Below, piece after piece: positions 4,901 to 20,571 of a stretch of DNA of 27,921 bases. Source of the DNA: a virus. The notes beneath the pieces were generated by a model. It was not told the origin of the DNA. It was given only the letters and a program-made list of their open reading frames with translations, and did not search any database. Made by a program: the position numbers and the translations under genes. The stretch's first letter is position 1. Each line of letters begins with the position of its first letter. The DNA is taken from positions 1 through 27,921 of the IMG/VR virus record IMGVR_UViG_3300046462_000050; one strand, given 5' to 3'.

Positions 4901-5583
4901 GCAACCTTGCCTTCCGGCGTGAATACAAGTGGCTTCGGTGCTGGCATGGCATCGAATGTCGAGCGCACACCGCCCGTCATAGCCATGTCTTGCGACCGCT
5001 GAATTAAAGTATCTAAAGGTTCTGTTGCTGTTGGATCGTCCGTAAAATCACTGGCATGAAGACCGCCGGCATAAACTTTTCCTTCTCTAACATCGCCCGC
5101 AAGAGTGGCTCCGCTCACAAACATTTCTTGAATGCGCGCCGCTAATGTTCCGCCAACACCAAGTGCGACACTGGCATAGTCACCATCCCGCAAAGCATTG
5201 GCCGTCCAATTAGCAATCCTCTGTGAGACTGGCATCTGAGCCATCTCATCCATGGTCTTATTAAGTTCTTGGCCCTGTGCGATACGCTGATGAAACGCCG
5301 CTGGCCCTGGATTGATCGGAACCGGCTGTGGATTGAATGCCGCCCAAGGATCGGGCTTTGCGCCCTTTGGTGCATATTGCGCCCACGGATCAGATGGTGC
5401 CTGCTGCGCAATCGGCTTTGGTTCTTGCGCATCACTTAATTCAGGGATGTTTTCTTCCGGTGCCTGTGGCGTATCTACAATGTTGGCGTCAGAACTTCCT
5501 GTCTCGGCGCCCTTCATTAATTTCTGCGGATCGGCATACCATGGAGTGTTCGTAGTTGGGTTGACGTTCTTGATGGCTGGCAT
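1957..5583 (-). CDS. Large internal virion protein, gp16-like (1208 aa)
   Basis: Size, position after the gp14- and gp15-like genes and long helical composition identify the large ejection protein that forms the DNA-conducting channel. The N-terminal about 100 residues are Pro-rich with repeated DPWAQYAPKG and DPWAAFNPQP. No transglycosylase motif is visible. A hydrophobic segment near residue 910 (AAKIAVGIIAVDYALSKIV) may insert in membrane. The C-terminus is basic (EKYLEQRRLKR). I start at the ATG at 5583, which overlaps the upstream TGA; an in-frame GTG at 5631 would add 16 residues inside the previous gene and looks spurious. The stop overlaps the next start (TAATG). Confidence 0.82.
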   Translation of the reverse strand: MPAIKNVNPTTNTPWYADPQKLMKGAETGSSDANIVDTPQAPEENIPELSDAQEPKPIAQQAPSDPWAQYAPKGAKPDPWAAFNPQPVPINPGPAAFHQRIAQGQELNKTMDEMAQMPVSQRIANWTANALRDGDYASVALGVGGTLAARIQEMFVSGATLAGDVREGKVYAGGLHASDFTDDPTATEPLDTLIQRSQDMAMTGGVRSTFDAMPAPKPLVFTPEGKVARLVTNPETGTMQAHVLGDAPPKPADFENAATNIAAINKTEPTVVEQNLRAKWEEEGKFPSELSADSKTDAFLAHELSSAATPPEDMPPLISPRMQPLTPSGSLVDLAHQGIEEIVGLAKNIDFLIDPMSTGSDRAMVIGKDTISNIRRAEWDEARYDRFALDNFSREDREQLFKAMDEESELLKRGEKSEHLGLNRLNPQQRQFVQAVDDRQQAIWRMAVDEGVAEGEGIPMHATRMVLGIASGEDRFALDTLGRNVKVRTPYLRHRKYETLQETEEAAKRAFGEQAFVAQDIRAVIASTAELEKAVIWKRMINSIKEVGERTGETTVTEGVEREGTFTLNHPAFKVWRPATRPMEPVETAPFPSEGKYITLHDEHGNMIWESHQLRLNNEFEGPLRSIMDEPRSKSPYARAAMAPYDAMMWFKGKVMTMIMNSPLIHNAVVWGKVAPSAPGEWLGLRLYWKGNAIKNDPVRSAELIERGLAPIGNRGSYQDISSQFETPSLIPGRSLTSKITAALATMDKVIPGKEAAAEQRSLNIREAFDKAGDFVHGTLLWDRVADVQFGIAQHLSDKLTSLGTERIVADRIASHFANTIVGAMPKEAMSAAMRAFLNTVLFSRSFTVGNMQVVKMAGVGIPKPIMAQIARDMGQLHPEEGGLPVPEAGDAYLNSLGKRRAMGSAAKIAVGIIAVDYALSKIVNSLIQNGMNVTLGNSNIAQEVRGYAERLKKEWDKIKVSPLELLHPLDLVDRLTPMSVNPTGKENRIFIGTDKYGNEIFGRNPMGKYPEEVTSWPSYPRYTLRSKLNPMIAGPLDVWMNQDAFGRKITQSDPKGYYEQGRAVLQGMGHIVARYFPEGQIQGGYDLLMNQGDPTVNKLRLFGPVAGFTTSTSPPAGKTEMFMEKDRQKAEFDMAWPGIRQMIRNGDLTGARKVMSGQLHMNILEQRSLERAAKDPSFVSGRSVRDFMQKATPEMREKYLEQRRLKR

Positions 5584-8144
5584 CAGCGCCCTGCCACCCG
5601 CGTCACTTCGCGGTTGTACCGAGCGGCCCACATCTCAACGAAGTCGGCACTCGTTACGCTCTCGACTCCATCAGGAAACTCAGCGCGCATACCTTTAGAC
5701 ATATTGCCCCATATCGCGCGCTTGGCCCATCCAATGCCCTTGCTCCGTCCTTCGCCGGTTTGTGCCATGCTGAGATAGGCTGGTTGTTCAGGATGCGTTA
5801 AATGCGCAATTGCTCCTCCGATACCTTGCTGATGTGCAAGATAATAATCGGACGGTTCCGGCTCATGACCTAACGCCTTGGTCAATGCTGGGCGGAAGCC
5901 TTCTGCTTCTTGCTGTAATGCGCGCGTCACCTGCGCTCTATTGTCTGGATCAGTAATACCAAGCCGGCGCTGCTCTGACTTACTGAATTGTCCTAAGCCC
6001 TCGTAACTGCCAGTGCGCTGACCTGTCCTGCCACCACTCTCGATCATAATTGTTGCAGCAGCATAAGTCGATTGTGCGCCACCTGACGCAGCCTTGCCCA
6101 TCGGCGCAACATTGCCACCGCCCATGGCTGCATCACTAGGCGTATGCGCGGCTGGCGTTCCTGCTTCTTCAGGCGGCCCCAATGATGCTTTTTGCAACCT
6201 TGCCACAGCACCACGCGCAGTATCTTGTAGCGCCGATTGGATTGCAGTCTGCGCCGAAGTTTCACCGCCAGTTTCCGGCGCGTAGCTCATTTTCTCCGGC
6301 ACCGTGCCGATCTGCCCCTTGTGTGGTCCTTCTGGAATAATGAACTTAGTTCCTGGTGCTAGGCTTTTCACATCATCAATCGTCTTGACCGGAGCGGCAG
6401 GTGGCGGCGGCGGTGGTGGTGCAGCCGTGGGCTGCGCAGGAGCCGCAGAAGGTGTTGCTGCCGGTGCCGTAGTTGGCTTTGCTTCTATTGCTCCCGGCTT
6501 GGCTGTTTCTGGCCTGGGCGCACCCAACCAAAACATACGTTCAAAAAATCCCGGTGTTTGTTGTGCTGGTGCCGCTGCGCCTGGCTGTTCGCCTCGCGCT
6601 GCCGCCCTAAGTTTGTCTGCCTCTTCATTAAGTTTAGTTTGATTTTTCTCATATTCCTGCGCAGCATTCTCGGTTACTCGATAGTTCAACAGGATTTTTG
6701 GATCGGTCATGCTTCCCGGCTTGCGAGGATCAAGCAGGTCAGTAAGTTTTTCACCTGCCGCCATGCGATCGCGCAATGCCATTTCCCATTTTCCAACTGC
6801 TGCTTGTCCTGCATTGGTCTTGCTAAAAGCAACCCCCGGTGTTGAAGCGGTATCAATCTGCGACATGACGCCATGTTCAAGCGCATCAGTGATTGCCGCC
6901 TTGACACCAGGATTTTTATCAACATCGTTCAATTGCTTGATGGCGTAGTCGTGTGCCTTCTCATCGATATCATGATTTACTAAGGCTTGGTCTATTGGTG
7001 TGCGGTCGGTAATTCTTTGCGGATCACCGGGCTGCTTATAAATACGCGGGAGTAATCCATTAGGACCACGCATAGAATTAAAGGTTGTCTCGGCAGGAAC
7101 CTCCAACTCTCCGGCCTTCAACTGCTTGATCGTCTTTACGGTTTCGGCTGCGGTCTTAGCCAGATCAGGTCTGTCCTTGTATGCCTGGTCTTGAATAATA
7201 TCGATAAGCTTTTTCTGAGGCTGCGGAGCCATGGCATCTGCCACATAAGACCCGGTAGCCGCATGTGCAGCTTCCGTCTGCGCGTGATTAAGTTGTGTCC
7301 GCTTTTCATTGATAACAGCGTCAACAGCCTTTTCCACTGATGGCAAGTGCTTACCCAATACCTCAGCATATTGAGGATCATGGATCATCCTCTTGCCTTC
7401 ATCTGGATTACCGATATTGGCCCAACCCATCGCGGCTTGCGTAATCATATTCTGTCTATCTGCAAGCTCACGCGGACCCATGGCTATGCGCTGTTCCGAC
7501 TTTGAGCCACCAAACATGGTTAACATTTGTTGATGCTGTGCAAGCGCATCTGGCAATCCGGTAGGGTGGTCAAAGAGCGGCCCCGTCAGTGCGGCAACAC
7601 TCGTGTCATAGTTATGTGTGAGTTCCTGCACCTGCCTTTGGTGTTCGACGGCATGGGCCTGCAAAGTCAATCGGCTGGTTTGCTGTGCCGCATGAACAGT
7701 CAACTTGTCGATCAATCGCGGACTGGCACCGGCAGCACGCGCACGCTCGATGGAGTTCTGCGTCATCTGCACATGCTGCTGCATGACATCATCAGCAACC
7801 GTCGCGTATTGACCGGCTGACGGCACGGAGATCGTCGAGCCATCAATGTCCTTTTTGGCCGAACCGCCTTGTTCCAGCGTCTGAGTAAACGCCAGTTGGC
7901 TCTGTGTCTGGTCGGAGTAGAACTGCGCCTCCGCCATCATGTCGGTGTGTTCTTCGGCCTGCTTGAAAATAGGTCCGAAGCTGGCAATGCCGGAACTTAA
8001 TTCCTGGCCTTCACGATCTAGAATAGCCCGCGTCTGCGCTCCGTAATGCTGCGCCATTGCACCAGCACGCGCCCAAGCCGCACTGCCTTGCTGATCGGGA
8101 TGCAGCGTTACCGGAGGTGCTTCATAGACTGGAATGCGTGGCAT
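5583..8144 (-). CDS. Internal virion protein, gp15-like, with C-terminal lytic transglycosylase (853 aa)
   Basis: This ejection protein probably helps DNA cross the envelope and opens the peptidoglycan. The first about 550 residues are helical, Gln/Ala/Asp-rich and begin MPRIPVYEAPPVTLHPDQQG, as in podoviral internal proteins. A Pro-run (about residues 570-580) leads to a short beta motif (APGTKFIIPEGPHKGQIG). The C-terminal domain is a soluble lytic transglycosylase: IMIESGGRTG with catalytic Glu702, then YEGLGQFSKSEQRRLGI and DYYLAHQQGIGGAIAHL. In T7 the transglycosylase belongs to gp16, at its N-terminus; here it ends the protein before the gp16-like one. The TGA overlaps the next ATG (TGATG). 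Confidence 0.85.
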   Translation of the reverse strand: MPRIPVYEAPPVTLHPDQQGSAAWARAGAMAQHYGAQTRAILDREGQELSSGIASFGPIFKQAEEHTDMMAEAQFYSDQTQSQLAFTQTLEQGGSAKKDIDGSTISVPSAGQYATVADDVMQQHVQMTQNSIERARAAGASPRLIDKLTVHAAQQTSRLTLQAHAVEHQRQVQELTHNYDTSVAALTGPLFDHPTGLPDALAQHQQMLTMFGGSKSEQRIAMGPRELADRQNMITQAAMGWANIGNPDEGKRMIHDPQYAEVLGKHLPSVEKAVDAVINEKRTQLNHAQTEAAHAATGSYVADAMAPQPQKKLIDIIQDQAYKDRPDLAKTAAETVKTIKQLKAGELEVPAETTFNSMRGPNGLLPRIYKQPGDPQRITDRTPIDQALVNHDIDEKAHDYAIKQLNDVDKNPGVKAAITDALEHGVMSQIDTASTPGVAFSKTNAGQAAVGKWEMALRDRMAAGEKLTDLLDPRKPGSMTDPKILLNYRVTENAAQEYEKNQTKLNEEADKLRAAARGEQPGAAAPAQQTPGFFERMFWLGAPRPETAKPGAIEAKPTTAPAATPSAAPAQPTAAPPPPPPPAAPVKTIDDVKSLAPGTKFIIPEGPHKGQIGTVPEKMSYAPETGGETSAQTAIQSALQDTARGAVARLQKASLGPPEEAGTPAAHTPSDAAMGGGNVAPMGKAASGGAQSTYAAATIMIESGGRTGQRTGSYEGLGQFSKSEQRRLGITDPDNRAQVTRALQQEAEGFRPALTKALGHEPEPSDYYLAHQQGIGGAIAHLTHPEQPAYLSMAQTGEGRSKGIGWAKRAIWGNMSKGMRAEFPDGVESVTSADFVEMWAARYNREVTRVAGR

Positions 8145-8147
8145 TTT

Positions 8148-8639
8148 TTAACCCCCAAACATCCCAAAAACTCCTGTTAATAGTTTAAGACCGCCGCCAA
8201 TCAACGCGCCCGTCGCAGCACTCTTGGCAGCCTCGCCGGCAGCCTGCGCCTGTTCGGCCTGCGCCTGATAGGCCAGCGATTGCTCCTGAAACGAATTGTA
8301 ATCGACGCTGGTCTGTAGCGAGATCAGGCTTTTGGCAATGCCGCCCTGGTGGATCGTGTCGCGCAGGATATCGCCGGCACTACCACCCATTATATTGCCG
8401 GTGCCCTCGACGGCCGATGCCGCGCCCTTAGTCAATTCGATCTTGCGGTTTTCCTGGGCGAGCTTGAAGTCGCCGGCCGTCAAGCTGATCTTGGCATTCT
8501 GCTGGGCAATCTGCGATGCAGTCGTGAAGTCAGCCGCTGCCGCAAAATCTCCTTTGGCCTGCGCCATGTCTCCTTGCGCGGAGAATATGCCGCCAACCGC
8601 GCCGCCAATGCCGCCGAATAGCCCCTCTAGTCCCGCCAT
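8148..8639 (-). CDS. Internal virion protein, gp14-like (163 aa)
   Basis: In T7-like phages gp14 is ejected into the outer membrane, and gp15 and gp16 continue the channel. This protein fits by size, position just before the two large ejection proteins, and composition: glycine-rich hydrophobic ends (GLFGGIGGAVGGIFSAQ and GALIGGGLKLLTGVFGMFGG) flank a long Ala/Gln-rich helix (SLAYQAQAEQAQAAGEAAKS). Both ends could insert in a membrane. The ATG is at 8639, 2 bp after the tail tubular B stop. The TAA is 3 bp before the next ATG, with GGGGG as that gene's ribosome site. Confidence 0.75.
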   Translation of the reverse strand: MAGLEGLFGGIGGAVGGIFSAQGDMAQAKGDFAAAADFTTASQIAQQNAKISLTAGDFKLAQENRKIELTKGAASAVEGTGNIMGGSAGDILRDTIHQGGIAKSLISLQTSVDYNSFQEQSLAYQAQAEQAQAAGEAAKSAATGALIGGGLKLLTGVFGMFGG

Positions 8640-8641
8640 TG

Positions 8642-9904
8642 TTATACGTCCTGCGTTTTCAGCATTGCGCCGATCGACACTACGGACGCCGGATAGGGCC
8701 GAAGTATCTGCCAGGTTATCATGCTGTCGAAGTCGTAATCATCCATCACGGTATCGCGCCAGGTGCCGGAATACATCTGGTTCGGCGGCGTCAGCACATC
8801 TCCGTCATCCTTGAAGTTGGCCGGCAGCAGCTTGTTGGCGAAGTCGGTGCCAACTTGCAGTCCGATGGTGTTGTGAAACAGCCCGACAAACAGGTGCGAG
8901 CGGCGTTTCTTGCCCATGGCCGGGCCGGCACGGGTTCCGGCGGTTTCCGGTGCGGACGGCCGCAACGCCTGACCCTGGCTGGTATAGGTGTAGCCGACGA
9001 CGCAAGGCATGAAGCCGCCGCCATAGGCTGGCGCTCCATTGCGCGGTGCTGCATCAAGCACATTGGCCGCAATGTAGGCCGCCGTGAACAGGTAATGCCC
9101 GGCACCGGCTACCGTGTAATTGAACGAGGCGGGAGCCGTGCCGCTGCCATACGGCACGAACACCGTGCCATCAGTCGCCACCGTGTAGTCCCCAAGATCG
9201 AGGCCGAACGCCATGACGGCAACCGTCTGCCCGATCAGCCAGTTCAAGCCGGTGAAATGCACGCCGGTAACAACAGCCCAATAGGTTTGCCATCCGGTCG
9301 TGACGCCCGGCTCGATGGCATGGCTCGCGGCAATCGCCACATAGGACACGCCGCTGTCGTTGACATAATCGCCAATGGCATAAGTCGGTGATCCTGACCA
9401 CGCTGAATAGGCCGGATTGTATGTATCTGCGTAGGCGCTGTCCGGCACCAGTCCACCATCGACAAACCAGGCGTCGGTGAGAGCGTCGTCCTCATCGAAC
9501 ATCTGCGTCAGACCCTCGACAAAGTAATTGCTGCCATCGGTCGTGACAAAATCCAGATTGTCGATCAGCCCGCTCGCATCGCCGGATGGCGTCACCCCCA
9601 TGCTAGTAAGCTGCCTCGTATGACCGAGATCGTGCCGGTGCCATCCGACAAACGCAGGTGCCTCTGTCGTGAATGCCGACACGCGCCGATAGGTAGCACC
9701 GATAAGCCCGCCTGAAGGAAACGTGACGACCGGCGGCGGCGGAGGCGGAGAACCTAATTTTACCCAAACCTCGAACCCGGCCTGGTTTACCGTGGCAAGA
9801 CGCGGATTATCAACCCACGTCTCGAATCCGGCTTCTACTACTACGACAGAAGCAGAATTAGAAACCCATGGCTCCAAGCCGGATTGGACGACGACTGCTG
9901 CCAT
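8642..9904 (-). CDS. Tail tubular protein B, C-terminal part, with N-terminal W-repeats (420 aa)
   Basis: From residue about 66 this continues the nozzle protein: GLIGATYRRVSAF, FVGWHRHDLGH, YFVEGLTQMFDEDDALTDAW, WLIGQTVAVMAFGLDLGDY, HYLFTAAYIA and KKRRSHLFVGLFHNTIGLQV are standard C-terminal signatures. One CBM5/12-like module is inserted at about 169-212 (WSGSPTYAIGDYVNDS). The first 50 residues are new: three repeats around QSGLEPWV, EAGFETWV and QAGFEVWV, then a PPPPPP linker. These may be a docking segment replacing the covalent link to the N-terminal part. The ATG lies 1 bp after the lectin stop (TGATATG), with no strong Shine-Dalgarno, so coupling is likely. Confidence 0.85.
   Translation of the reverse strand: MAAVVVQSGLEPWVSNSASVVVVEAGFETWVDNPRLATVNQAGFEVWVKLGSPPPPPPVVTFPSGGLIGATYRRVSAFTTEAPAFVGWHRHDLGHTRQLTSMGVTPSGDASGLIDNLDFVTTDGSNYFVEGLTQMFDEDDALTDAWFVDGGLVPDSAYADTYNPAYSAWSGSPTYAIGDYVNDSGVSYVAIAASHAIEPGVTTGWQTYWAVVTGVHFTGLNWLIGQTVAVMAFGLDLGDYTVATDGTVFVPYGSGTAPASFNYTVAGAGHYLFTAAYIAANVLDAAPRNGAPAYGGGFMPCVVGYTYTSQGQALRPSAPETAGTRAGPAMGKKRRSHLFVGLFHNTIGLQVGTDFANKLLPANFKDDGDVLTPPNQMYSGTWRDTVMDDYDFDSMITWQILRPYPASVVSIGAMLKTQDV
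9761..9895 (-). repeat. Three W-repeats at the start of tail tubular B C-part
   Basis: Residues 4-48 consist of three copies of about 15-17 residues ending in G(L/F)E(P/T/V)WV. Similar short repeats are known to me in other phage structural proteins, without a firm function. Confidence 0.65.
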
Positions 9905-9905
9905 A

Positions 9906-10964
9906 TCAAGGACTCGAAACTATTTCAGGTCCAAGGGTTGCCGCATCGACGGCAGCCTGTAGCCAGGCAACTGAAGTCGCCGGATCGACAGTCATGGGCT
10001 TGAGACACCACCTATTCGTGCTTGCCAGCGATAGATTGGCAGATGAGACGGTAGTTGCCGCAGACGTAACATTGACCTTTACGGTATAGGCCGTCGTGTC
10101 CGATATGTTGGCATACATCTTTCCAACGACACAAACGATGGTAAGCGGAATGCTCGGCAGCGGAGAGACGGTGTAAAAATCCTGATGTCCTACGGTGCTA
10201 TCGGAAACAAATGGCGTTGTCGCCGGCACTAACTTATTGACGCATTGCCAGTTGGCGCCTGTTGATGGAGTGAACTGCAACGGAGTTGAATTGCCGTTCG
10301 GCATGAGTTGATATGCCCGCACGTCCCCCTGGAAGTCAGCCGGTGCCGTAGCGTCGTCGCCAGTGAACATATAGAAATCGTCAACGTATGTATTGTTAGA
10401 CCCAAAGCCGTTGAGTTGAATTAGGTTGATGTAACTGTTTGTTGATCCTGACCTTGTATTTAGACCCGTCGCGCTGAAATCATTTGACGTGTTTCCGTTG
10501 CGTCTTATGGAAACAGAACCAGTTGAATTGTTGATGACCAACTTTATTTGATAATGAATATACTGGAAACTGGTGAAAACGTTGTTGAATGTTGCCAATA
10601 TAGAGCCGCCGCCGTTGGCCGCGGTCGTGACAATAATGGAGCCATTGCTCCTGGTCGCAATCGAGCATTGCAAATGCGCGCCGGTATCGTAACAGTTGAT
10701 GCAAAACTGATTCGATGACGAGCCAGGGGTCAATTCATAATTTGCCATGGCAGCAAAGTTGATAAACATCGTCGTGCGATTGCCGGTCAAGTTCTGCCAC
10801 AAGTTTGAACTCGGCCCGAATTGAGCAGCCTGTCCGATGCCAAATCTGGTGTACGGCAATCCCGGCCTCGTGATAATACCGGCACCCGTGTACCAGTTTG
10901 TCGGCGCCACACCATCGGCCACCGCACCCCAGAAATCGAAACTATCGCCGAAGTCCCAGCTCAT
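9906..10964 (-). CDS. LamG/concanavalin-like lectin protein inserted between the two tail tubular B parts (352 aa)
   Basis: The N-terminal about 205 residues look like a LamG or concanavalin-type jelly roll: MSWDFGDSFDFWG, GLPYTRFGIGQAAQFGP, FQYIHYQIKLVINNSTGSVS and NTYVDDFYMFTGDD. Residues about 206-352 are a second beta-rich domain seen in other phage structural proteins: QGDVRAYQLMPNGN, QFTPSTGANWQCVN, GHQDFYTVSPL, ending in DPATSVAWLQAAVDAA. A surface-binding tail appendage is likely. The start (ATG at 10964) has AGGAG overlapping the tail tubular B stop region (GTAGGAGAATGAAATG). It separates the two halves of tail tubular protein B with no spare sequence either side, implying a clean insertion or rearrangement. 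Confidence 0.72.
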   Translation of the reverse strand: MSWDFGDSFDFWGAVADGVAPTNWYTGAGIITRPGLPYTRFGIGQAAQFGPSSNLWQNLTGNRTTMFINFAAMANYELTPGSSSNQFCINCYDTGAHLQCSIATRSNGSIIVTTAANGGGSILATFNNVFTSFQYIHYQIKLVINNSTGSVSIRRNGNTSNDFSATGLNTRSGSTNSYINLIQLNGFGSNNTYVDDFYMFTGDDATAPADFQGDVRAYQLMPNGNSTPLQFTPSTGANWQCVNKLVPATTPFVSDSTVGHQDFYTVSPLPSIPLTIVCVVGKMYANISDTTAYTVKVNVTSAATTVSSANLSLASTNRWCLKPMTVDPATSVAWLQAAVDAATLGPEIVSSP

Positions 10965-10965
10965 T

Positions 10966-13161
10966 TCATTCTCCTACTGTTGGCACGTCGCCGGTCCTGG
11001 CCCACAAGACCGGCGCGAGTTCTTCCTGATAGGCGATTTCTGCCACGCCGTTCGTCGTCAGATGCTTGGCGGCCTCGTTCAGGTGCGGCGCGACATAACG
11101 TCCGGTAAACACGTCGGCCAGAAACTCCATGACGCGGCGACGGAATTTCTGGATGAACACAAGGCTTATGCCGGTACGGCGCGGCTCGACATTGGCGCAG
11201 CCATACTTGGTAACGCGCTTGGCCTGTATGCTGGTCGGCGTGATAGGATCGGACAATGTGCTGGCCTGGATCAGCCATTCACCACCGAGCGTGCCGAAAC
11301 AGATGCCGTTGTGGTCCGGCTCCAGCCAAAATATCTCATTGGCATTACGTCCTTGCAGGGTATAGCTGATGCCATTGGCATCCGTAACAGTTCCGTCCTG
11401 CAATGTCGGGGCCATGAATAGAGCGCCGTTTTTATCGAAGCCCTGACTTTGCGATGTGTCGAATCTGTTTGGAATGGCGCCGGCAAACCAGAACCGACCC
11501 TCGTAAAATGAACCACAGGCAGGATATGCGGTCGTATCAGAATAAACTCCAAGCCTCCATAGCGGGGCAGGTTCCGGCACCGTTAGCGGTACATCTTTTG
11601 TCGGACTATAGATCGGAAGCGGAGAACCTTCGATCACAACAACGGCCGAAACAGAACTCAAGACTTGCGTGATGACGCCGCCGGTCCATTTATCGTAATT
11701 GCCGGGGGGCTGTAAATTCCAGACTGGACCTGGGACGATGCTGCCGCCCGGTCCTGAACCAGTAACGAGTAGGCTGTTACCTATAAGATTTACCGACTGA
11801 CCGGGGACATCGTTTACACTTAGATTGTTGGTATTAGGATCGCCACTCACATATACGGCGTCTTGGTAAGTAACTACATCGCCCGTGTGATAAACAGTAT
11901 TTGCATCCCACTCCGGCGGTTGTGACCAAATCCTGACATGCCGACCGACATCGGTCGATTGGAACCCCGGCAATTGCCCGTAGGTTAAATAGGGTCCGGT
12001 GACTTCTGTTCCGACCGGAACAACCTCCCAAAATGCCGTTTGAGTTGCTGGGTTTTGATTTATGTTGCCCTGCTGCAACGACCGATAGTTAATGCCTAAA
12101 TAAGAAACATAATCATCAATGTTATACGGCTTCGTAGCGTCCCAAACGATAAACGAAACCGTTATCGTAACGCTGCCGTCGATGCCGGCGCCCGCTCCTG
12201 ATGCTGATACGAGATACCAGCCGGCGCTTGGAGGCGCCACACCGATCGGTGAAGTGACACCAGGAAATCCGTTCGACGGAGCATACAAATAATAAAGATT
12301 ACCAAGCTCTACAACGGCTCCACCATGATACGATATGCTGGCATCCCACGGTAAAGGACCAGTGAGCGTGCCGCCAGCGAAAGTCAATTGGCTGTTGTTT
12401 ACCGGGTCGAGATACGGCCCATCTATGAATTGCACCTTTTGAAATGTCGCGAAGGCCGTGCCGGCGAATGTGCCAGACGCAATCGTAAGAACATACGGAA
12501 GGAAAAGACGATTTAGCACCAGGCCAAATTCCTGATTTTGCACAATCCGGCATGTTACCCATGTTCTATCGGTGTAGGGCGTTGCCAAACGCAAAATTCG
12601 CGAAGCCGTAATGACGGTGTTGGCAGTAATGTTAAGCGTCGAACCGTCGATGCTAGTCCCTGTAAGTCCATCTGTCAGCGTGAATGTCGATGTCGTAACA
12701 AGCGTGACGGCAAACGTGCGTTGCCGCAGCGGCAGCGACCCGGTTGGATGAGCAGCATCGAATGCAAACGTGATCTCGTCACCTGTCACCCACGTCACCG
12801 GAGCCGTCAGAGTAAGCAATGCCGGATTGGCCGAACTGATCGAGGCTACAGCCTGCGGTCCATCAACCGTGTAAACTAATTTATGTCCCTGATAAAACCG
12901 CAGCCAGCCATCCGTGAACTCAACGTCATACGGCTGGTCTGAAGCAAATTCTATCGGATAAATCTTGGCCGGATTGTTCTGGTAGGTCGGCGCCTTCAGA
13001 CGAGAACCCGGCCTGCGCAGCCATGTGCCCTCCTCGATCGGCAGACCGTTGCGCGATACGTTGAGAGCCGTGACATACTTGGGATGGTCCGTGCGGCCCT
13101 GGTAGAACGGCGACCACTCGCCGCCGAGAAATGATTTCTGTGTCCAGGAAGTTTCGGCCAC
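10966..13161 (-). CDS. Tail tubular protein B, N-terminal part (731 aa), GTG start
   Basis: This is the nozzle protein of podoviral tails (T7 gp12 type), but only its first part. The opening WTQKSFLGGEWSPFYQGRTD, then TWLRRPGSR, and the later AKRVTKYGCANVEPRRTG and VFIQKFRRRVMEFLADVF are family hallmarks. The protein stops shortly after LAPVLWARTGD, exactly where relatives continue into a strand like LLGLTYxRxxExxAWHRH. That continuation is found two genes downstream (8642-9904). Three CBM5/12-like modules are inserted at about residues 271-318, 339-382 and 417-450. The start is GTG at 13161, 3 bp after the previous stop, with GAGG upstream. The TGA ending sits inside the ribosome-binding zone of the next gene. 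Confidence 0.88.
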   Translation of the reverse strand: MAETSWTQKSFLGGEWSPFYQGRTDHPKYVTALNVSRNGLPIEEGTWLRRPGSRLKAPTYQNNPAKIYPIEFASDQPYDVEFTDGWLRFYQGHKLVYTVDGPQAVASISSANPALLTLTAPVTWVTGDEITFAFDAAHPTGSLPLRQRTFAVTLVTTSTFTLTDGLTGTSIDGSTLNITANTVITASRILRLATPYTDRTWVTCRIVQNQEFGLVLNRLFLPYVLTIASGTFAGTAFATFQKVQFIDGPYLDPVNNSQLTFAGGTLTGPLPWDASISYHGGAVVELGNLYYLYAPSNGFPGVTSPIGVAPPSAGWYLVSASGAGAGIDGSVTITVSFIVWDATKPYNIDDYVSYLGINYRSLQQGNINQNPATQTAFWEVVPVGTEVTGPYLTYGQLPGFQSTDVGRHVRIWSQPPEWDANTVYHTGDVVTYQDAVYVSGDPNTNNLSVNDVPGQSVNLIGNSLLVTGSGPGGSIVPGPVWNLQPPGNYDKWTGGVITQVLSSVSAVVVIEGSPLPIYSPTKDVPLTVPEPAPLWRLGVYSDTTAYPACGSFYEGRFWFAGAIPNRFDTSQSQGFDKNGALFMAPTLQDGTVTDANGISYTLQGRNANEIFWLEPDHNGICFGTLGGEWLIQASTLSDPITPTSIQAKRVTKYGCANVEPRRTGISLVFIQKFRRRVMEFLADVFTGRYVAPHLNEAAKHLTTNGVAEIAYQEELAPVLWARTGDVPTVGE

Positions 13162-13164
13162 GGA

Positions 13165-14307
13165 TTAGTACCTCACCGCGAGGTAGTCATCGCGGGGTGC
13201 CTCCTCCGCTTCGTTCTCGATGCCGTTGACGGTGCGGGCCTCCGTCATGAACTTGGCATACTCGCCGCTGATGTTTTTCAGCTTCTCGGTCGATTGCGTG
13301 ATGATCTCGCAGACTTCCAATGCGATACGCGCGGCAAAACCCTCACAGAACATCGCATCCATAGCCCTGATGTTTGTCACATCTGCGGTAAAGCGCAGCA
13401 CGATTGGGTCGCTCTGCCGCGACACGATATAGCCGCCCTCGAATATCCAATCATTGTACAACAGGCTTGATGGCGCCCCCAGGAATGATGTTGAGCCGGC
13501 CTTGGGGTCTTGGTTGCACTTGCGCAGATATCCATAGGGCAACGGAAACACGTTCTTGGTCTGCGACTGCGAGAACGGCCCGGCTTGCAACGGATAGAAA
13601 ATGTTGAGCGCCACAAGGTTTGTGCCGACCAGTACCCACTGATAGGAGCCGGTAGATGCCGTCACGGTCCACTGCGTTGCAAAGCTGGGCGGGATAAGGT
13701 TGATATTGCCATCGACGTTGCTGATGTAATTGGTCGAGGCATAGGTGACGATCGTGCCCTTATCGTAGGTGACGGTGGCATCCCAGGTGTTTGTTACGCT
13801 GGGATCGGCAGCGTTTCCGCTCATCAGCGACATATAGACCTTGAAAGTGCCGTTGCTCTGCGTCTCATAGACCAGATCGCCGGCATAATAGTTGGTCTTG
13901 ACGGTGTATGGCGTGGCCACAAGCGAGCCGAAGTAATTTTCCCATTGGTTGTTGTTAGTGGGGATATTGCCAACATTGCCCGACGCCACCGACAGCCAGT
14001 ACCGGCTGCCAAAGCCGTCGTCGTAGCTCACCACCTGCCCCATGGCGTAGGTCGTGCCTACCGCCCAGGCCGGCGGCGTCCAAAGCATCGAATTGGTATC
14101 AACCGGCCGTAGAACCGCGCGGCGAACGGCAAAGGTCCAGTTATTACGCCGCAGTTCAGCCTGCCGCAGCTTGGTGTAGCAAGCCTGCACTTCCTTGGCG
14201 TTTTTGCTGCTTTCCGTAATGGATGCTATGCGGTTGCCGCCGCAATGCTGCAAGGCACGATTGGCGATATCCTCGACCGAGGTAAAACCTGGGGTCTGAA
14301 ATAGCAT
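13165..14307 (-). CDS. Tail tubular protein A with inserted carbohydrate-binding-like modules (380 aa)
   Basis: The ends match the T7 gp11-like adaptor joining portal to nozzle: N-terminal SVEDIANRALQHCGGNRIAS and KLRQAELRRNNWTFAVRRAVL, C-terminal ALEVCEIITQSTEKLKNI. The middle carries three modules with the chitin-binding (CBM5/12-like) pattern of an initial Trp or Tyr, YxxGxxVxY and a closing Trp: residues about 76-125 (YAMGQVVSYDD), 133-175 (YYAGDLVYETQ) and 175-215 (YDKGTIVTYAS). These make it clearly longer than the approximately 200-residue T7 protein. The start has AAGGGAG 6 bp upstream. It is the first gene after motif copy B and is followed 3 bp later by tail tubular protein B. Confidence 0.88.
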   Translation of the reverse strand: MLFQTPGFTSVEDIANRALQHCGGNRIASITESSKNAKEVQACYTKLRQAELRRNNWTFAVRRAVLRPVDTNSMLWTPPAWAVGTTYAMGQVVSYDDGFGSRYWLSVASGNVGNIPTNNNQWENYFGSLVATPYTVKTNYYAGDLVYETQSNGTFKVYMSLMSGNAADPSVTNTWDATVTYDKGTIVTYASTNYISNVDGNINLIPPSFATQWTVTASTGSYQWVLVGTNLVALNIFYPLQAGPFSQSQTKNVFPLPYGYLRKCNQDPKAGSTSFLGAPSSLLYNDWIFEGGYIVSRQSDPIVLRFTADVTNIRAMDAMFCEGFAARIALEVCEIITQSTEKLKNISGEYAKFMTEARTVNGIENEAEEAPRDDYLAVRY

Positions 14308-14348
14308 CGGCGGCTCCCTTGATGCCGCAATTTGACCTATTTACGCCC

Positions 14349-14363
14349 TACCGCAAGGCACTA
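14349..14363 (-). promoter_or_regulatory. Copy B of the 15-bp intergenic motif
   Basis: The minus strand reads TAGTGCCTTGCGGTA, identical to copy A over all 15 bases, and the next bases are GGG. The initial TAG is the stop of the 51-aa gene. It opens a 53-bp gap before tail tubular protein A, whose own site is AAGGGAG just before the ATG. Confidence 0.62.
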
Positions 14364-14516
14364 CTCGACGGCATGTAACTGCGGCTTATCCTGCTCTTTA
14401 GGCTCCAGCGCCTTGAGCCTTTCCTGCGCTTCTTCAAGTTGCCGTTGCAATTCGTGGTTGACGAACACGAGTTCGCCAATGTGCTGCTTTAGACGCTGCT
14501 CAAGAGTGTTTATCAT
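14361..14516 (-). CDS. 51-aa coiled-coil protein
   Basis: A short gene with a good start: ATG at 14516 preceded by AGGAG that overlaps the spike's stop (TAGGAGCCAACATG). The sequence is almost entirely charged helix: LEQRLKQHIGELVFVNHELQ then EEAQERLKALEPKEQ. Leu/Ile/Val heptad positions indicate a coiled coil, probably dimer or trimer. The TAG stop is the first codon of motif copy B. Function is unknown; it may help assemble or attach the trimeric fibre or spike just upstream, which is inference. Confidence 0.65.
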   Translation of the reverse strand: MINTLEQRLKQHIGELVFVNHELQRQLEEAQERLKALEPKEQDKPQLHAVE

Positions 14517-14524
14517 GTTGGCTC

Positions 14525-16039
14525 CTATGGTGTGTAAACACTAACCCAATCGACGTACATGGGGATGGCGATTGCAAGTCCTGTGACATTAACTCCGGTG
14601 TCCATGAATACCGGCAAATGCTGAGTTTCTATTGCGGCACCGTGAGTATCAGTCAAGGGATAATAAACAAATTCAGAATTGTTGATGAATTGACCGTTGA
14701 GGAAGTGCATGAAACGACCGCAATTGTCTCCGTTGGTGGTAGAATCCAGCCATATTCCGGTAATTCTGGCAAACTTACTTGATGAAATTGCAGGCTCGAC
14801 AGTCGATGTCGTATCGACTGATCCTATCTGATTGTCATGCACAACACCGGCAACTTGATACCAATCGTGCGCTACACTCGTTGACCCTTGAATATCCGTA
14901 ACATCCCATTCCAGCATATCGTTTGCGGCAGACAGGCCGGTATTGATAAGACTCTCTATGGCCGAACCCCAGAACGCCGGACCTAGGCCGGTCGATGTCA
15001 CAACATCCCAGGCAAAATATCCGTCGAAGATGACAGGCGCACCAAATACACTGCCGATATATCCCCCAGCATCTGGGCAGGCCACACTCCACAGCATCGC
15101 CGTCCATGGATTTTGTGGCGCGGCTCCTGCATTATAAATCTTTAGAACTGACGGACTCGAAATAGATAAACTACTAGGCAGCGTGATTTCATTTCCTCCA
15201 GCCCCGCGATGCTGCCAACTGAATGTCGGGTAGGCGGAATTTGGCGCTAGATTATTGACATACCAGTTGAACCCTGGAGCCAACGTATTGTTGACATCAA
15301 TCGTTGACAGGTCAGTGAAATCGTCGTGAAAAACACGATTGTTCATGTCCCACACGGCCCTTGGAAGCTGATTGAGCCACCAAAGATTGATGCCGGACGA
15401 TCCGTTGCCTTGATAGCTGATATTCCTTGCTGCTGTCCCTGACCCCGCATCGAGATTAATTTGCTGAAGCCAATTTGCGCTGGCGGTTGTACCAGGAACG
15501 CCAGAATTAAATGTCGCGTCGAAAATGCAAAGCCACCAACCCGATCCCAGGGCAGACATACTATAATTTGTAATAGTAAATTCGCTACCATTTACGAGAT
15601 CGTAGCCGACATTGCCGCCAGAGAGATCAAAACCGACCGATACCGTTCCGTTGGTTTCATCACTGTAGCGCGTAAGAGAAACGACGATCCTAGTTCTTTC
15701 GGCAGCTTGCGCAATGCACGCCATCCGGTAGGTACAGGTCGCTTGTTTATTTGTTCCCGTATCTCGCGAGACAACGTAGTGCTGATTGTTGGAAGAATCC
15801 TCTTTGAGTTTTTGTCCGTTGCTCGTTCCATCGAGCAGAGAAACATTCTTAGAAACCGTCGAGTTAACCCAATTATATTGCCCTATCGCTTGCACATTGC
15901 CGCTGAAATCAGATGCCTGAGCAAAGGCACCGGGCCATGGAGCCATATTAAAATTAGCCGGTACATACCCAACCAATGAAGCGAGCGATATGCTTCTCTT
16001 CACAAGCATTGTTGTCCCCGATACGGAGATCAGGGACAT
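14525..16039 (-). CDS. GH16-like tail spike with carbohydrate-binding N-terminal domain (504 aa)
   Basis: Residues about 75-225 look like the beta-sandwich binding domain common in phage spikes (HYVVSRD, RIVVSLTRYSDETNG, ALGSGWWLCIFDATF). Residues about 236-504 match the layout of GH16/concanavalin-like glucanases: FHDDFTDLSTID at the start, GLGPAFWGS and NDMLEWDVTDIQG at the active-site strand, then FMHFLNGQFI, ending with MYVDWVSVYTP, which mirrors the classic VDYVRVY end. GH16 enzymes carry ExDxxE; here it is E377-W-D379-V-T-D382, so the second glutamate is aspartate. It may be a weakened or altered enzyme, or a pure lectin. A glycan-binding or depolymerising spike is the likely role. It starts 3 bp after the fibre stop. 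Confidence 0.72.
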   Translation of the reverse strand: MSLISVSGTTMLVKRSISLASLVGYVPANFNMAPWPGAFAQASDFSGNVQAIGQYNWVNSTVSKNVSLLDGTSNGQKLKEDSSNNQHYVVSRDTGTNKQATCTYRMACIAQAAERTRIVVSLTRYSDETNGTVSVGFDLSGGNVGYDLVNGSEFTITNYSMSALGSGWWLCIFDATFNSGVPGTTASANWLQQINLDAGSGTAARNISYQGNGSSGINLWWLNQLPRAVWDMNNRVFHDDFTDLSTIDVNNTLAPGFNWYVNNLAPNSAYPTFSWQHRGAGGNEITLPSSLSISSPSVLKIYNAGAAPQNPWTAMLWSVACPDAGGYIGSVFGAPVIFDGYFAWDVVTSTGLGPAFWGSAIESLINTGLSAANDMLEWDVTDIQGSTSVAHDWYQVAGVVHDNQIGSVDTTSTVEPAISSSKFARITGIWLDSTTNGDNCGRFMHFLNGQFINNSEFVYYPLTDTHGAAIETQHLPVFMDTGVNVTGLAIAIPMYVDWVSVYTP

Positions 16040-16042
16040 TTC

Positions 16043-18304
16043 TTAAACTCGTGCGGCTAATTCTTTGATTGCGTTGACACAAGCGGCGAGCAATGCACGA
16101 TCCTGTAAGGTGAGTGAACCGTCACGGTTCTGCCCAGTTGCCAACGGGATTATCGAGTTGACGTTGCGAGCGCCAAATCCGGCATACTCATGCTCTGTTT
16201 CCATACCACTCGACGGTTTCCATTTGTAGCGGATTGGTTTGATCTGCATGAGTTCGGCAAGGCCGGAAGTGAAAGCGCCTTGGATGTCCTTGACATTTTC
16301 ATCCGATGTGGCGGTGATATTCCCGCTTGCATCGGTTGACATGGCCCCTGCTCCATAACCGTTGAAGGCAATCCCAGTTGCACTTGAATTAGCGATAGTT
16401 ATTGCCGCCGCTGGCGTGGCAATAACCGTTCCGGTGCTTCCTGCAATAGAAGATTGAAATATGATCTTTCCGGGTGTGCCGGAGCCTTTATTCAGACCTG
16501 ATACGATTGTGAAATCTGCGCCGTTCACATCGGACGTTCCGCCCGCGAGAGGACGCTGCACCGTAATTGTCTGCGCGACAGGGGCGGTGTTTACGTCTGC
16601 CAAACCAAGATTGAGGGTGGCTGTTGTACGACGCTGCAAGATCGTATCGCAACTTGAATATCCCGCGTTGCCAAATCCGATTGCTAAGGCAAATCCGGTA
16701 TTTTTGGATACCTGAAATTCTGCTGTAGTCCCCTGCCAAATTACAGAGTCGTCAGATGCCCTGCACGCCAAATTTCCAGGGCATTTCAATCCTTTCACTA
16801 TGACTTTATCGTTTAGGACCGCGAAAACGCGGGTCGTGCTGTTTTGCACTTCCATCAACGATGATGCGGCGTCGCTCGCGGTATTAGTGACATTCATAAA
16901 GAAGCCACCGCCGACGACGATGCCGGAGGTGTTCAACGTCCCGGTAATATTTAATCCTACGCCGTGCGTGCCGGAGCCAGTGGTATTTCCGCCACCGATT
17001 GAGGCGGTGTAATTATTGTCCGACCCCGTAACGGCGAGAAACGTACTGCCGATGGTAGCGCCGTTGAGCGCCAGCGAGGTTCCGGTAGCAACTCCAAGAG
17101 CAGGAGTAATCAAGGCCGGAGAAGTCTGCATGGCAACAACTGTGCCAGAACCGGACAAAGTATATTCACCTACCACGCCGGAATTATCGTAGAGAATGCG
17201 AGTATTGGTCCCGCTTGTAATTGTCGAAGTGCCAACGGTTAAGCCGCCGCCACCGGCCGCCCAACTCAATATTCCGTTGCCTGCCGCGTCAGTCAGAACT
17301 GTTCCCGCTGCACCAACAGCAGTCGGTAACGTGTAAGTAACGGCTGCCGTGGCACTGTTGCTCGACTTGATGGTGGTGGCAAACGCTCCCGCCGCTGTGT
17401 TAGCGAGTACGATTGAGCCTTGCGTGGTTTGCTGAACACCATGGGTAAACGCACCAGAAATGAATGCCGTTCCCGTAATGGCGAGGGCATTACTGCCAAG
17501 CGTAGCGCCGCCGAGAGCAATGCTGGTTCCTGTAGCAACACCTAGAACCGGAGTAACTAGCGTTGGTGTACCGTCATAAACCAGTTTGCCGGTGCCGGTT
17601 GCACCTGTGGAAGTCACACCCTCGAATGTCGTATGCCCTGTTACTGAAATAGCACCAGCAATAGTGGTCAAACCATCCTTGCGAACGCTGAATTTGCTGG
17701 ACGATCCTACTTCGAGATCGAGCAACAGCGATGCCGACGCGCTGTTAGTGTCTGTCACATTCATCTTAACGGCGGTGAACGTGGTGGCGATATTATTCCA
17801 GGTATCGGTCAGATTGTTGATGGCGATTGGTGTGACCCAACTCATTGCGGTCGAGCCGCCGCCGCCGGAGGTCAGCACATCGCCGGAGTTTCCCGCGCCT
17901 GTCGGAAGATTGAGATTATATGTTCCGGCTGCGGCTTGCGTTTGTATCGTAATTGCGCCGGACGAACTGCCGTCAATCTCGACAGTTCCCTTCAACGATA
18001 TCGAATTGCTGCCGATAGTCGTGCCATTGAGAGCTAGACTTGTTCCCGTGGCTACACCAAGAACCGGCGTTACCAGCGTAGGCGTTCCATCAAACACGAA
18101 CTTTCCGGTGCCAGTCGCGCCGGTTGCCGTCACACCTTCTATTGTGGCATGGCCGGTGATCGTAGGAGATGCGCTAGTGAATGCTTTAATCTGCGTGCCA
18201 GAAAACAGCAGATCGGTAGTGCCGGAATTTATGCCAACCAACGTATCGGCAGCAACTAGGTTTGCACCAGATGCCGTAATGGCTGATAGTTTCTGATTGG
18301 CCAT
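16043..18304 (-). CDS. Tail fibre with C-terminal peptidase S74 intramolecular chaperone (753 aa)
   Basis: A trimeric fibre that likely binds the host surface. The C-terminal about 87 residues are an S74 self-cleaving chaperone. SDENVK gives Ser667 and Lys672, the same Ser-to-Lys spacing as the catalytic dyad of the K1F endosialidase. MQIKPIRYKWK and DRALLAACVNAIKELAA follow, as in the family. The shaft is Gly/Thr/Ala/Ser-rich with repeated modules at residues 49-100, 222-274 and 391-420, sharing cores like GVATGTSLALNG; GTVLTDAAGNGILSW-type turns also recur. The N-terminus (MANQKLSAITAS) resembles virion-anchoring ends of other phage fibres. Cleavage is expected just before Ser667. The ATG directly follows the previous stop. 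No enzymatic depolymerase motif was seen. Confidence 0.88.
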   Translation of the reverse strand: MANQKLSAITASGANLVAADTLVGINSGTTDLLFSGTQIKAFTSASPTITGHATIEGVTATGATGTGKFVFDGTPTLVTPVLGVATGTSLALNGTTIGSNSISLKGTVEIDGSSSGAITIQTQAAAGTYNLNLPTGAGNSGDVLTSGGGGSTAMSWVTPIAINNLTDTWNNIATTFTAVKMNVTDTNSASASLLLDLEVGSSSKFSVRKDGLTTIAGAISVTGHTTFEGVTSTGATGTGKLVYDGTPTLVTPVLGVATGTSIALGGATLGSNALAITGTAFISGAFTHGVQQTTQGSIVLANTAAGAFATTIKSSNSATAAVTYTLPTAVGAAGTVLTDAAGNGILSWAAGGGGLTVGTSTITSGTNTRILYDNSGVVGEYTLSGSGTVVAMQTSPALITPALGVATGTSLALNGATIGSTFLAVTGSDNNYTASIGGGNTTGSGTHGVGLNITGTLNTSGIVVGGGFFMNVTNTASDAASSLMEVQNSTTRVFAVLNDKVIVKGLKCPGNLACRASDDSVIWQGTTAEFQVSKNTGFALAIGFGNAGYSSCDTILQRRTTATLNLGLADVNTAPVAQTITVQRPLAGGTSDVNGADFTIVSGLNKGSGTPGKIIFQSSIAGSTGTVIATPAAAITIANSSATGIAFNGYGAGAMSTDASGNITATSDENVKDIQGAFTSGLAELMQIKPIRYKWKPSSGMETEHEYAGFGARNVNSIIPLATGQNRDGSLTLQDRALLAACVNAIKELAARV
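17045..18160 (-). repeat. Repeated modules in the fibre shaft gene
   Basis: Three related segments lie at about 18005-18160, 17483-17641 and 17045-17134. The first two share the full pattern EGVT(A/S)TGATGTGK, DGTPTLVTPVLGVATGTS and an LGSN/IGSN turn. The third keeps only the later half (PALITPALGVATGTSLALNG). Such repeats let fibres change length by recombination. Confidence 0.7.
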
Positions 18305-19435: not shown

Positions 19436-19990
19436 TCACTCGCAATAAAGGACGGTCACGCCCATGCGCGCACCCGTGGTGACGGTGGCACCATCGCAGG
19501 TCGCCACGATATCGAAGAACCCCTTGGGGTCGGCCGTCAAGCCGCAAGCCTGCCATAGCGGCTGATTGCGTTTGTCCAGCGTGTTCAAGGCGGTGCCGTA
19601 ATAGGTGCGGTCAACCGGAGTTACCGCACTCGTGCAGTCAATGTCACCGGAGAAGAAGTTGACCTGACTTGTGCTGCCGCTACTGGTAACAACCAGTCCG
19701 GCATTGGGCGATGCCGTACCATCACTGGTACTGGACGAGTAATAGACACCGAGTTGGAACTCGCCCTGCGTCATGGCTTCCGCCTCGAAGATCACACGCT
19801 TGACCTTGGCGGTCGTCGGCACGCGCACGAGTTGATAAGTAGAGGCCAGGGCGTCCAGCGATACCGTGGTGACGAAGCCGTTAACCTCTTGCAGCCAGCC
19901 GGCCGCGCCCTCGCCGATCGTGGCCTGGGTCGGCGGCACGGTTTCCATAGCCGTGATAATGGCCGATTTCAGATGGGATGTCTGTGCCAT
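19436..19990 (-). CDS. Cement / head-decoration-like protein, copy 2 (184 aa)
   Basis: This is the paralogue of the preceding 190-aa protein, aligning end to end with roughly half the residues identical by eye. Shared blocks are MAQTSHLK, VVTSSGSTSQVN, FSGDIDC and YGTALNTLDKRN. It lacks about five residues in the loop before VVTSSG and has a different C-terminus (VLYCE against VLYVD). The start has GAGG upstream and follows the first copy's stop by 8 bp. Having both copies intact suggests either a hetero-oligomeric shell component or two specialised sites on the capsid, which is inference. Confidence 0.75.
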   Translation of the reverse strand: MAQTSHLKSAIITAMETVPPTQATIGEGAAGWLQEVNGFVTTVSLDALASTYQLVRVPTTAKVKRVIFEAEAMTQGEFQLGVYYSSSTSDGTASPNAGLVVTSSGSTSQVNFFSGDIDCTSAVTPVDRTYYGTALNTLDKRNQPLWQACGLTADPKGFFDIVATCDGATVTTGARMGVTVLYCE

Positions 19991-19998
19991 GATCTACC

Positions 19999-20571
19999 TC
20001 AATCGACGTAGAGGACGCAGACGCCCATCTTGCCGGTTCCGGTGGTGACGGTCGTGGTATGAACCGTCCCGACGATATCGAAGTAACCACCAGGATCGGT
20101 CAATAGACCACAGGCATCCCACAACCGCTTGTTGCGCTTGTCGAGCGTGTTGAGCGCCGTACCGAAGTAGGTGTAGTCGGCCTGCCCAACCGCCGATGCG
20201 CAATCGATGTCGCCGGAGAAGTAATTGACTTGGCTGGTCGAACCTGAACTGGTCACAACCTTGGGCGCGCCGGTCGATAGCTGATTGGCGGCCACCGTGC
20301 CGTCAGTCAGGCTGGTCGAGTAATAGACGCCCAACTGCACCTTGCCGGCGCCCTGGGCCTCGCTCTCGAACAACACCTGCTTGACGCGCGCATGAGTTGG
20401 CACGCGGCAGAACTGGTAGGTGGTCGCCGCGTCGTCGAGCGTGATAGGCGTGACATAACCGCCGATCGCGCGTACGCGACCGCCAGCCCCCTCACCGGCC
20501 GTCGCGAAAACAGCCGGGGTTGCGTCGAGATTGGTAACTGCCGTAGCTTTCAGATGGGAGGTTTGTGCCAT
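19999..20571 (-). CDS. Cement / head-decoration-like protein, copy 1 (190 aa)
   Basis: It sits directly after the capsid gene, where BPP-1-type phages encode a cement protein, and is beta-rich without long helices. Key stretches are ARVKQVLFESEAQGAGKVQL, VVTSSGSTSQVNYFSGDIDC and YFGTALNTLDKRNKRLW. The Shine-Dalgarno AGGAG overlaps the capsid stop (TAGGAGCCAAACATG). The adjacent downstream gene is a paralogue with the same N-terminus (MAQTSHLK), so this is a tandem duplication. The shell-decorating role is inferred from position and fold type; a head fibre base or connector accessory is the alternative. Confidence 0.75.
   Translation of the reverse strand: MAQTSHLKATAVTNLDATPAVFATAGEGAGGRVRAIGGYVTPITLDDAATTYQFCRVPTHARVKQVLFESEAQGAGKVQLGVYYSTSLTDGTVAANQLSTGAPKVVTSSGSTSQVNYFSGDIDCASAVGQADYTYFGTALNTLDKRNKRLWDACGLLTDPGGYFDIVGTVHTTTVTTGTGKMGVCVLYVD

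Follow-up and report, generated by a model that had tools for sequence, protein, structure and literature searches.

The nozzle of the phage tail keeps the pressurised genome in place, and has to alter its shape to let the genome out. An earlier note on the DNA studied here had proposed that the nozzle gene (tail tubular protein B) is split into two genes with a lectin-like gene between them, and we asked whether the two genes encode one nozzle and why they are interrupted at this place. The window, which is the whole stretch analysed (27,921 nt, IMG/VR virus record IMGVR_UViG_3300046462_000050), carries the nozzle locus with all genes on the minus strand. N731 and C420 denote the N- and C-terminal nozzle chains, and L-numbers denote contigs of relatives. 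The features of the locus are as follows.

13165..14307, minus strand: ttpA (adaptor), 380 aa, with a CBM5/12-like insertion (phrog_394, E = 2e-34; CBM_5_12)
10966..13161, minus strand: N731, N-terminal nozzle chain, 731 aa, GTG start (phrog_376 match)
10971..10976, minus strand: Shine-Dalgarno-like TAGGAG before the lectin ATG, within the 3' end of the N731 gene (from the sequence)
9906..10964, minus strand: lectin-like protein, 352 aa, ATG start (phrog_2448 match, AlphaFold2, Foldseek)
8642..9904, minus strand: C420, C-terminal nozzle chain, 420 aa, ATG start (phrog_376, identity to L005)
9749..9904, minus strand: three W-repeats at the start of C420 (repeat pattern, 68-aa gene of L076)
9272..9415, minus strand: insertion of about 48 aa within C420, weakly CBM5/12-like (weak match, E = 0.65; alignment)
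8148..8639, minus strand: T7 gp14-like internal virion protein, 163 aa (phrog_418, E = 1e-6)

For the late genes, which lie on this strand, the order of transcription is capsid region, variable genes, ttpA, N731, the 352-aa gene, C420 and the gp14-like gene.

Profile searches placed N731 at positions 1-469 (E = 2e-59) and C420 at positions 600-711 (E = 2e-10) of the 712-position family phrog_376 ('tail protein'), without overlap, and N731 also matched the Carin-1 nozzle (8ck1_A, E = 8e-18). Unsplit forms are present in related phages. In MW202898, a single 850-aa 'phage stabilization protein' is covered by N731 at residues 1-520 and by C420 at residues 516-848, and in L005, one chain of 1532 aa is covered at residues 1-729 and 1221-1532, respectively. 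The two proteins are thus consecutive parts of one nozzle family, as had been claimed; they do not cover the same region of it, and the coverage of both single chains rules out C420 as an unrelated tail protein beside a full-length nozzle. N731 is 89% identical to its counterpart in L004 and 82% to that in L005, and C420 shares 72% identity with the C part of the unsplit protein in L005. Alignment showed that the C-terminal residues of C420 are intact and that its insertion of about 48 aa is missing from L005, L006, L007 and L009. Because the subunit is encoded by two genes in different frames rather than as a single polypeptide, the locus represents a split variant and not a standard phrog_376 member. 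From these sequence relationships, the two chains would form one working nozzle. No nozzle homologue was found in a search of bacterial and archaeal genomes.

The nozzle fold was recognised in the model of an unsplit relative, L021 (858 aa), predicted by AlphaFold2 from a 38-row alignment (pLDDT 86.5, pTM 0.86). The best PDB match of the model was the Carin-1 nozzle (E = 4e-42), and other nozzles were matched too, among them T7 gp12 (7boy, E = 4e-20). In this model, strands 568-573 and 578-584 are joined by a hairpin turn of 4 residues, which holds the break. The family profile matched the Carin-1 nozzle with E = 3.5e-163, and the break aligned to the turn WLVRSDGALL of that protein (approximately residues 498-507). 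The alignment of the family against T7 gp12 alone by hhalign was weak, and the break is therefore not assigned to a particular propeller blade of T7 gp12. A break in so tight a turn would leave the strands on either side able to pair across the chain break, so that a split subunit could fold. T7 gp12 has at its core a seven-bladed propeller, the loops of which shut the channel, and its C-terminal platform seats on the adaptor (PMC6702177), so a functional nozzle should need both chains.

The N731, lectin and C420 genes occupy three different frames, so simple read-through cannot join them, and each gene junction has a proper stop and start codon. The nozzle-family homology of N731 stops at about residue 724 (base ~10990), and its last 6-7 residues (VPTVGE) overlap the ribosome site of the lectin gene. 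The 3' end of the N chain gene reads GTA GGA GAA TGA in the window, and the stop in L004 is the TAG of TAGGAG, such that the N chain ends within or just past the lectin ribosome site in both. The 352-aa gene is intact and has its own clear Shine-Dalgarno-like TAGGAG at 10976-10971, in agreement with the earlier note. No clear ribosome site was found in the sequence at the start of C420. The ATG of C420 lies one base past the lectin stop (TGATATG), and its translation is therefore probably coupled to, and likely dependent on, that of the lectin gene. The nozzle homology of C420 begins at about residue 65 (GGLIGATYRR, base ~9712).

To examine the state of the break point in relatives, all collected contigs were searched with profiles of the C part and of the 200 residues that precede the break, counting one locus per contig; some of the 52 scored contigs are near-copies of one another (e.g. 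L029-L031). The break was read straight through in 44 of the 52 loci, with a direct join (gap below 60 aa) in 31 and a single frame for at least 150 aa in 13 more. Four of the 52 (L005, L006, L007, L041) carry an in-frame insert of 427-499 aa exactly at the break, and in another four (the window, L004, L010, L011) the frame stops there. The independent contig L004 contains the N chain, the lectin gene and the start of the C chain in the same order as the window, with intact frames. Its N chain, lectin and W-repeat start are 89%, 60% and approximately 50% identical to those of the window, respectively. The recurrence of the arrangement in L004 indicates that the split is neither an assembly error nor a fresh mutation. 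The complete split is seen in the window only, since the L004 contig stops 97 aa into the C chain. The N chains of L010 and L011 end at the same residue as that of the window, followed by a 93-aa gene, a phrog_644 gene of ~146 aa and a BNR-repeat protein of at least 413 aa; these contigs stop ahead of any C chain, too early to judge the C half. A search for the missing half through their BNR gene returned the same contigs only.

The unsplit L005 holds a 492-aa module in the slot, and the ttpA protein of the window is 100% identical at the amino acid level in both L004 and L005. The L005 module is homologous to inserts that L012 (E = 2e-17) and L045 (E = 3e-21) carry at a second site. The slot cargo of L006, L007 and L041 consists of SPRY-type modules, the SPRY match of L007 being under the curated cut-off and its module being homologous to that of L006. 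These comparisons support the proposal that cargo of the binding type is installed at the break point. The second cargo slot of the nozzle lies in the C part (L021 residue ~734), and inserts of 375-660 aa are present there in L012, L017, L023, L025, L045 and L047.

The 352-aa protein matched phrog_2448 over nearly its full length (residues 5-348 of 352, profile positions 4-333 of 335, E = 7e-23), and contains a concanavalin-A-like N-terminal domain (~1-210) and a conserved C-terminal domain (~255-352). Its AlphaFold2 model had a pLDDT of 77, with residues 223-254 poorly predicted. Foldseek showed a concanavalin-A-like jelly-roll fold, with matches to ERGIC-53, calreticulin and legume lectins at E = 3e-7 and weaker; the target-normalised TM was 0.37 for ERGIC-53 and approximately 0.4-0.58 for most entries with a single lectin domain. 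Closer fold matches were full-length phage proteins in BFVD (E = 2e-24, TM 0.78/0.82), and the shared fold together with the full-length profile match assigns the protein to phrog_2448. Brevundimonas, Caulobacter, Burkholderia and Mesorhizobium phages carry genes of this lectin family amid their tail genes. A search of viral contigs with the single protein found no close relatives, and a search with an alignment found 8 loci. The fold suggests that the lectin-like protein may bind host surface glycans.

The W-repeat extension of C420 exists as described in the earlier note, and comprises three repeats of the type VVxQxGxExW in residues 1-52, with units of ~17-22 residues (VVVQSGLEPW / VVVEAGFETW / TVNQAGFEVW). 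In a different phage, L076, a standalone 68-aa gene with three repeats comes directly after a lectin gene that is 57% identical, and the lectin stop overlaps the start of the repeat gene; no nozzle half is attached, and the peptide is 47% identical to residues 1-52 of C420. The gene after these two (L076:6271-7554) appears ATP-grasp-like by eye, and gave no significant family match. Further 69-aa three-repeat genes lie directly before a lectin-family gene in CcrMagneto and CcrKarma, and a 103-aa repeat gene lies directly after two lectin-family genes in Mesorhizobium phage Cp1R7A-A1. At least three tandem units were detected in 9 of 3,492 ORFs with a pattern written after the examples were known, and all nine (copies of L004 included) adjoin a lectin-family gene. 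A repeat search of viral contigs returned L076, L004 and one further match, L093, which was dismissed as chance, since it belongs to a long, spurious frame in an unrelated phage of high GC content. Blast searches of phages with the short repeat peptides found none, and many lectin-family genes in Brevundimonas, Burkholderia and Sphingomonas phages and in L077-L082 have no repeat neighbour detected by the pattern. The repeats appear to move together with the lectin gene, and a role as partner or dock of the lectin is more likely than one as a glue between the nozzle chains. The standalone repeat gene of L076 suggests that the lectin and repeat genes probably entered the slot of the nozzle gene as a unit, with the repeat gene becoming fused to the C-terminal half.

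In a tree built from the N part of the nozzle by a quick method, with some weak branches, the split window and L004 group with the fused L005 (support 98), and at least three changes between the split and fused states are needed. The dN/dS was 0.06 for the N chain (window against L004, both split) and 0.12 for the C part (split window against unsplit L005), from which both nozzle chains are under purifying selection. The silent sites of the lectin gene are too diverged for dN/dS scoring.

Several further observations were made in the neighbouring genes. CBM5/12-like modules are inserted in both the adaptor (13165-14307), which has 380 aa against 190 in the family profile phrog_394, and N731 (10966-13161; two stretches, E = 5e-11). 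The adaptor gene of L010 (991-3897) and L011 (5092-7998) encodes 968 aa with three tandem ttpA copies, each matching the 380-aa ttpA of the window, and four of these triple chains could make up a ring of 12 adaptors. Between the capsid-region genes and the adaptor, the window (14525-18304) encodes proteins of 504 and 753 aa, and L004 (3381-6801) and L005 have four different genes there, making this a second exchangeable region. The 753-aa protein ends in a Peptidase_S74 chaperone domain, and is therefore probably a spike or fibre. The genes at 19436-19990 and 19999-20571 (184 and 190 aa) are neighbouring paralogues, ~56-60% identical as seen through L004. On the other side of the locus, the gp14-like protein (8148-8639) is 92% identical in L005. 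The 853-aa product of the gene at 5583-8144 is positioned as expected for an internal virion protein that is ejected. Its residues 695-790 match phrog_22520 and look by eye like a region of the lytic transglycosylase type (MIESGGRTGQRTGSYEGLGQFS).

We consider it somewhat more likely than not that the nozzle consists of two chains and displays a lectin that comes from a gene of its own and docks on the repeats. The earlier note had read the W-repeat extension differently, as reconnecting the two nozzle chains, with the lectin-like protein then being unrelated or a free tail protein. The position of the extension does match the break exactly, and L004 has it in conserved form, but its counterpart in L076 is a separate gene beside a lectin with no nozzle half, lectin-family genes of Caulobacter and Mesorhizobium phages have similar repeat genes next to them, and N731 has acquired no segment to pair with the extension, the short extra tail of N731 running into the ribosome site of the next gene. 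We regard reconnection as improbable, and of the earlier interpretation the two-piece nozzle and the break as a site for binding-type cargo are retained, while the rejoining of the chains through the repeats is not. Slightly less probable again is that the N chain alone serves as a shortened nozzle, the C chain being a decaying remnant or a separate lectin-carrying tail protein. The lack of a clear ribosome site for C420, and the contigs of L010 and L011, on which no C half is found, would fit such a loss, but those contigs end too early to tell, and the dN/dS of 0.12 and intact C-terminal residues of the C chain argue against decay. Moreover, the corresponding C-terminal part of T7 gp12 forms the platform on the adaptor (PMC6702177), so a nozzle lacking it should not attach.

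That the interruption is removed before the protein is made, by a self-splicing intron, an intein or ribosomal bypass, giving one chain in the virion, would fit a break inside one gene with an ORF in the gap. A search of 8000-14400 with Rfam, up to E = 1, found no catalytic intron RNA, and an intron or bypass was rejected. Splicing would also have to excise the in-frame, conserved repeat segment of the C chain, the stop and start codons lie exactly at the gene junctions, and the gap gene encodes a phage tail-type protein and not a homing nuclease; we consider removal highly improbable. An assembly or frameshift artefact in the metagenome might be suspected in an uncultured contig that provides the single complete example, but each junction has proper stop and start codons, and in the independent L004 the three genes follow in the same order, with intact frames and a lectin that is 60% identical. 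Assembly error was rejected through L004, and an artefact is the least probable of these explanations.

The preferred reading, a two-chain nozzle with a docked lectin, can be placed beside known systems. The T7 gp12/ttpB nozzle family (phrog_376; 8ck1; 7boy, 6r21) shares the profile, the fold and the gene position, after the adaptor gp11 and before the gp14-like protein. Unlike that family, the window has two chains with a third gene between them, several CBM5/12-like insertions, and a C chain newly extended at its N terminus. The relatives with in-frame cargo (L005, L006, L007, L041) have the same break point, binding-type cargo and similar flanking linkers (GDLPA... and ...PGGLIGATYRR), but encode one polypeptide with a SPRY-type or unnamed module instead of a separate lectin and fused repeats. 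Brevundimonas phage Delta gp31, CcrMagneto gp100 and BcepSaruman gp270, tail-region proteins of phrog_2448, share full-length homology and the predicted fold with the window lectin, and are likewise set among tail genes; their genes are ordinary neighbours, and were not seen interrupting another gene. In Vibrio phage OWB, the tail tubular proteins A and B bind the receptor Vp0980, a precedent for host binding by the nozzle and adaptor themselves; the abstract of that study mentions neither a split gene nor an added lectin (PMC7241545).

The lectin and repeat cassette sitting inside the nozzle gene would explain why the nozzle is encoded as two chains. The assembly would be a hexamer of the T7 gp12 type that opens and closes the DNA channel, here with two chains per subunit. 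The break in the tight β-hairpin turn would leave the neighbouring strands paired, and the subunit would fold as a split protein. The break site would act as a cargo slot, in which relatives hold binding-type modules of 430-500 aa within one chain. In the window, this slot would hold a cassette of two genes, one for the lectin-like protein, preceded by its own ribosome site, and one for the three-repeat peptide. The latter gene may have lost its stop codon, so that it now forms the beginning of the C420 gene. Most likely, the lectin-like protein is held by the repeats, and the nozzle would then display non-covalently a lectin where its relatives display a covalent domain. From its fold and position, the displayed lectin may bind host surface glycans. 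For the podovirus group as a whole, we give an even chance to the view that the nozzle hairpin turn is an exchangeable cargo slot, at which covalent inserts and a trans-acting, repeat-docked lectin are swapped, and that the gate tolerates the cut.

No earlier report of a split nozzle was found in the open-access literature searched. A nozzle naturally cut at a cargo slot would show where the machine tolerates foreign parts. The locus also makes the repeat peptide a candidate docking site for a phage lectin-like protein that is widespread. If the proposed arrangement is true, receptor binding would be tied directly to the DNA gate.
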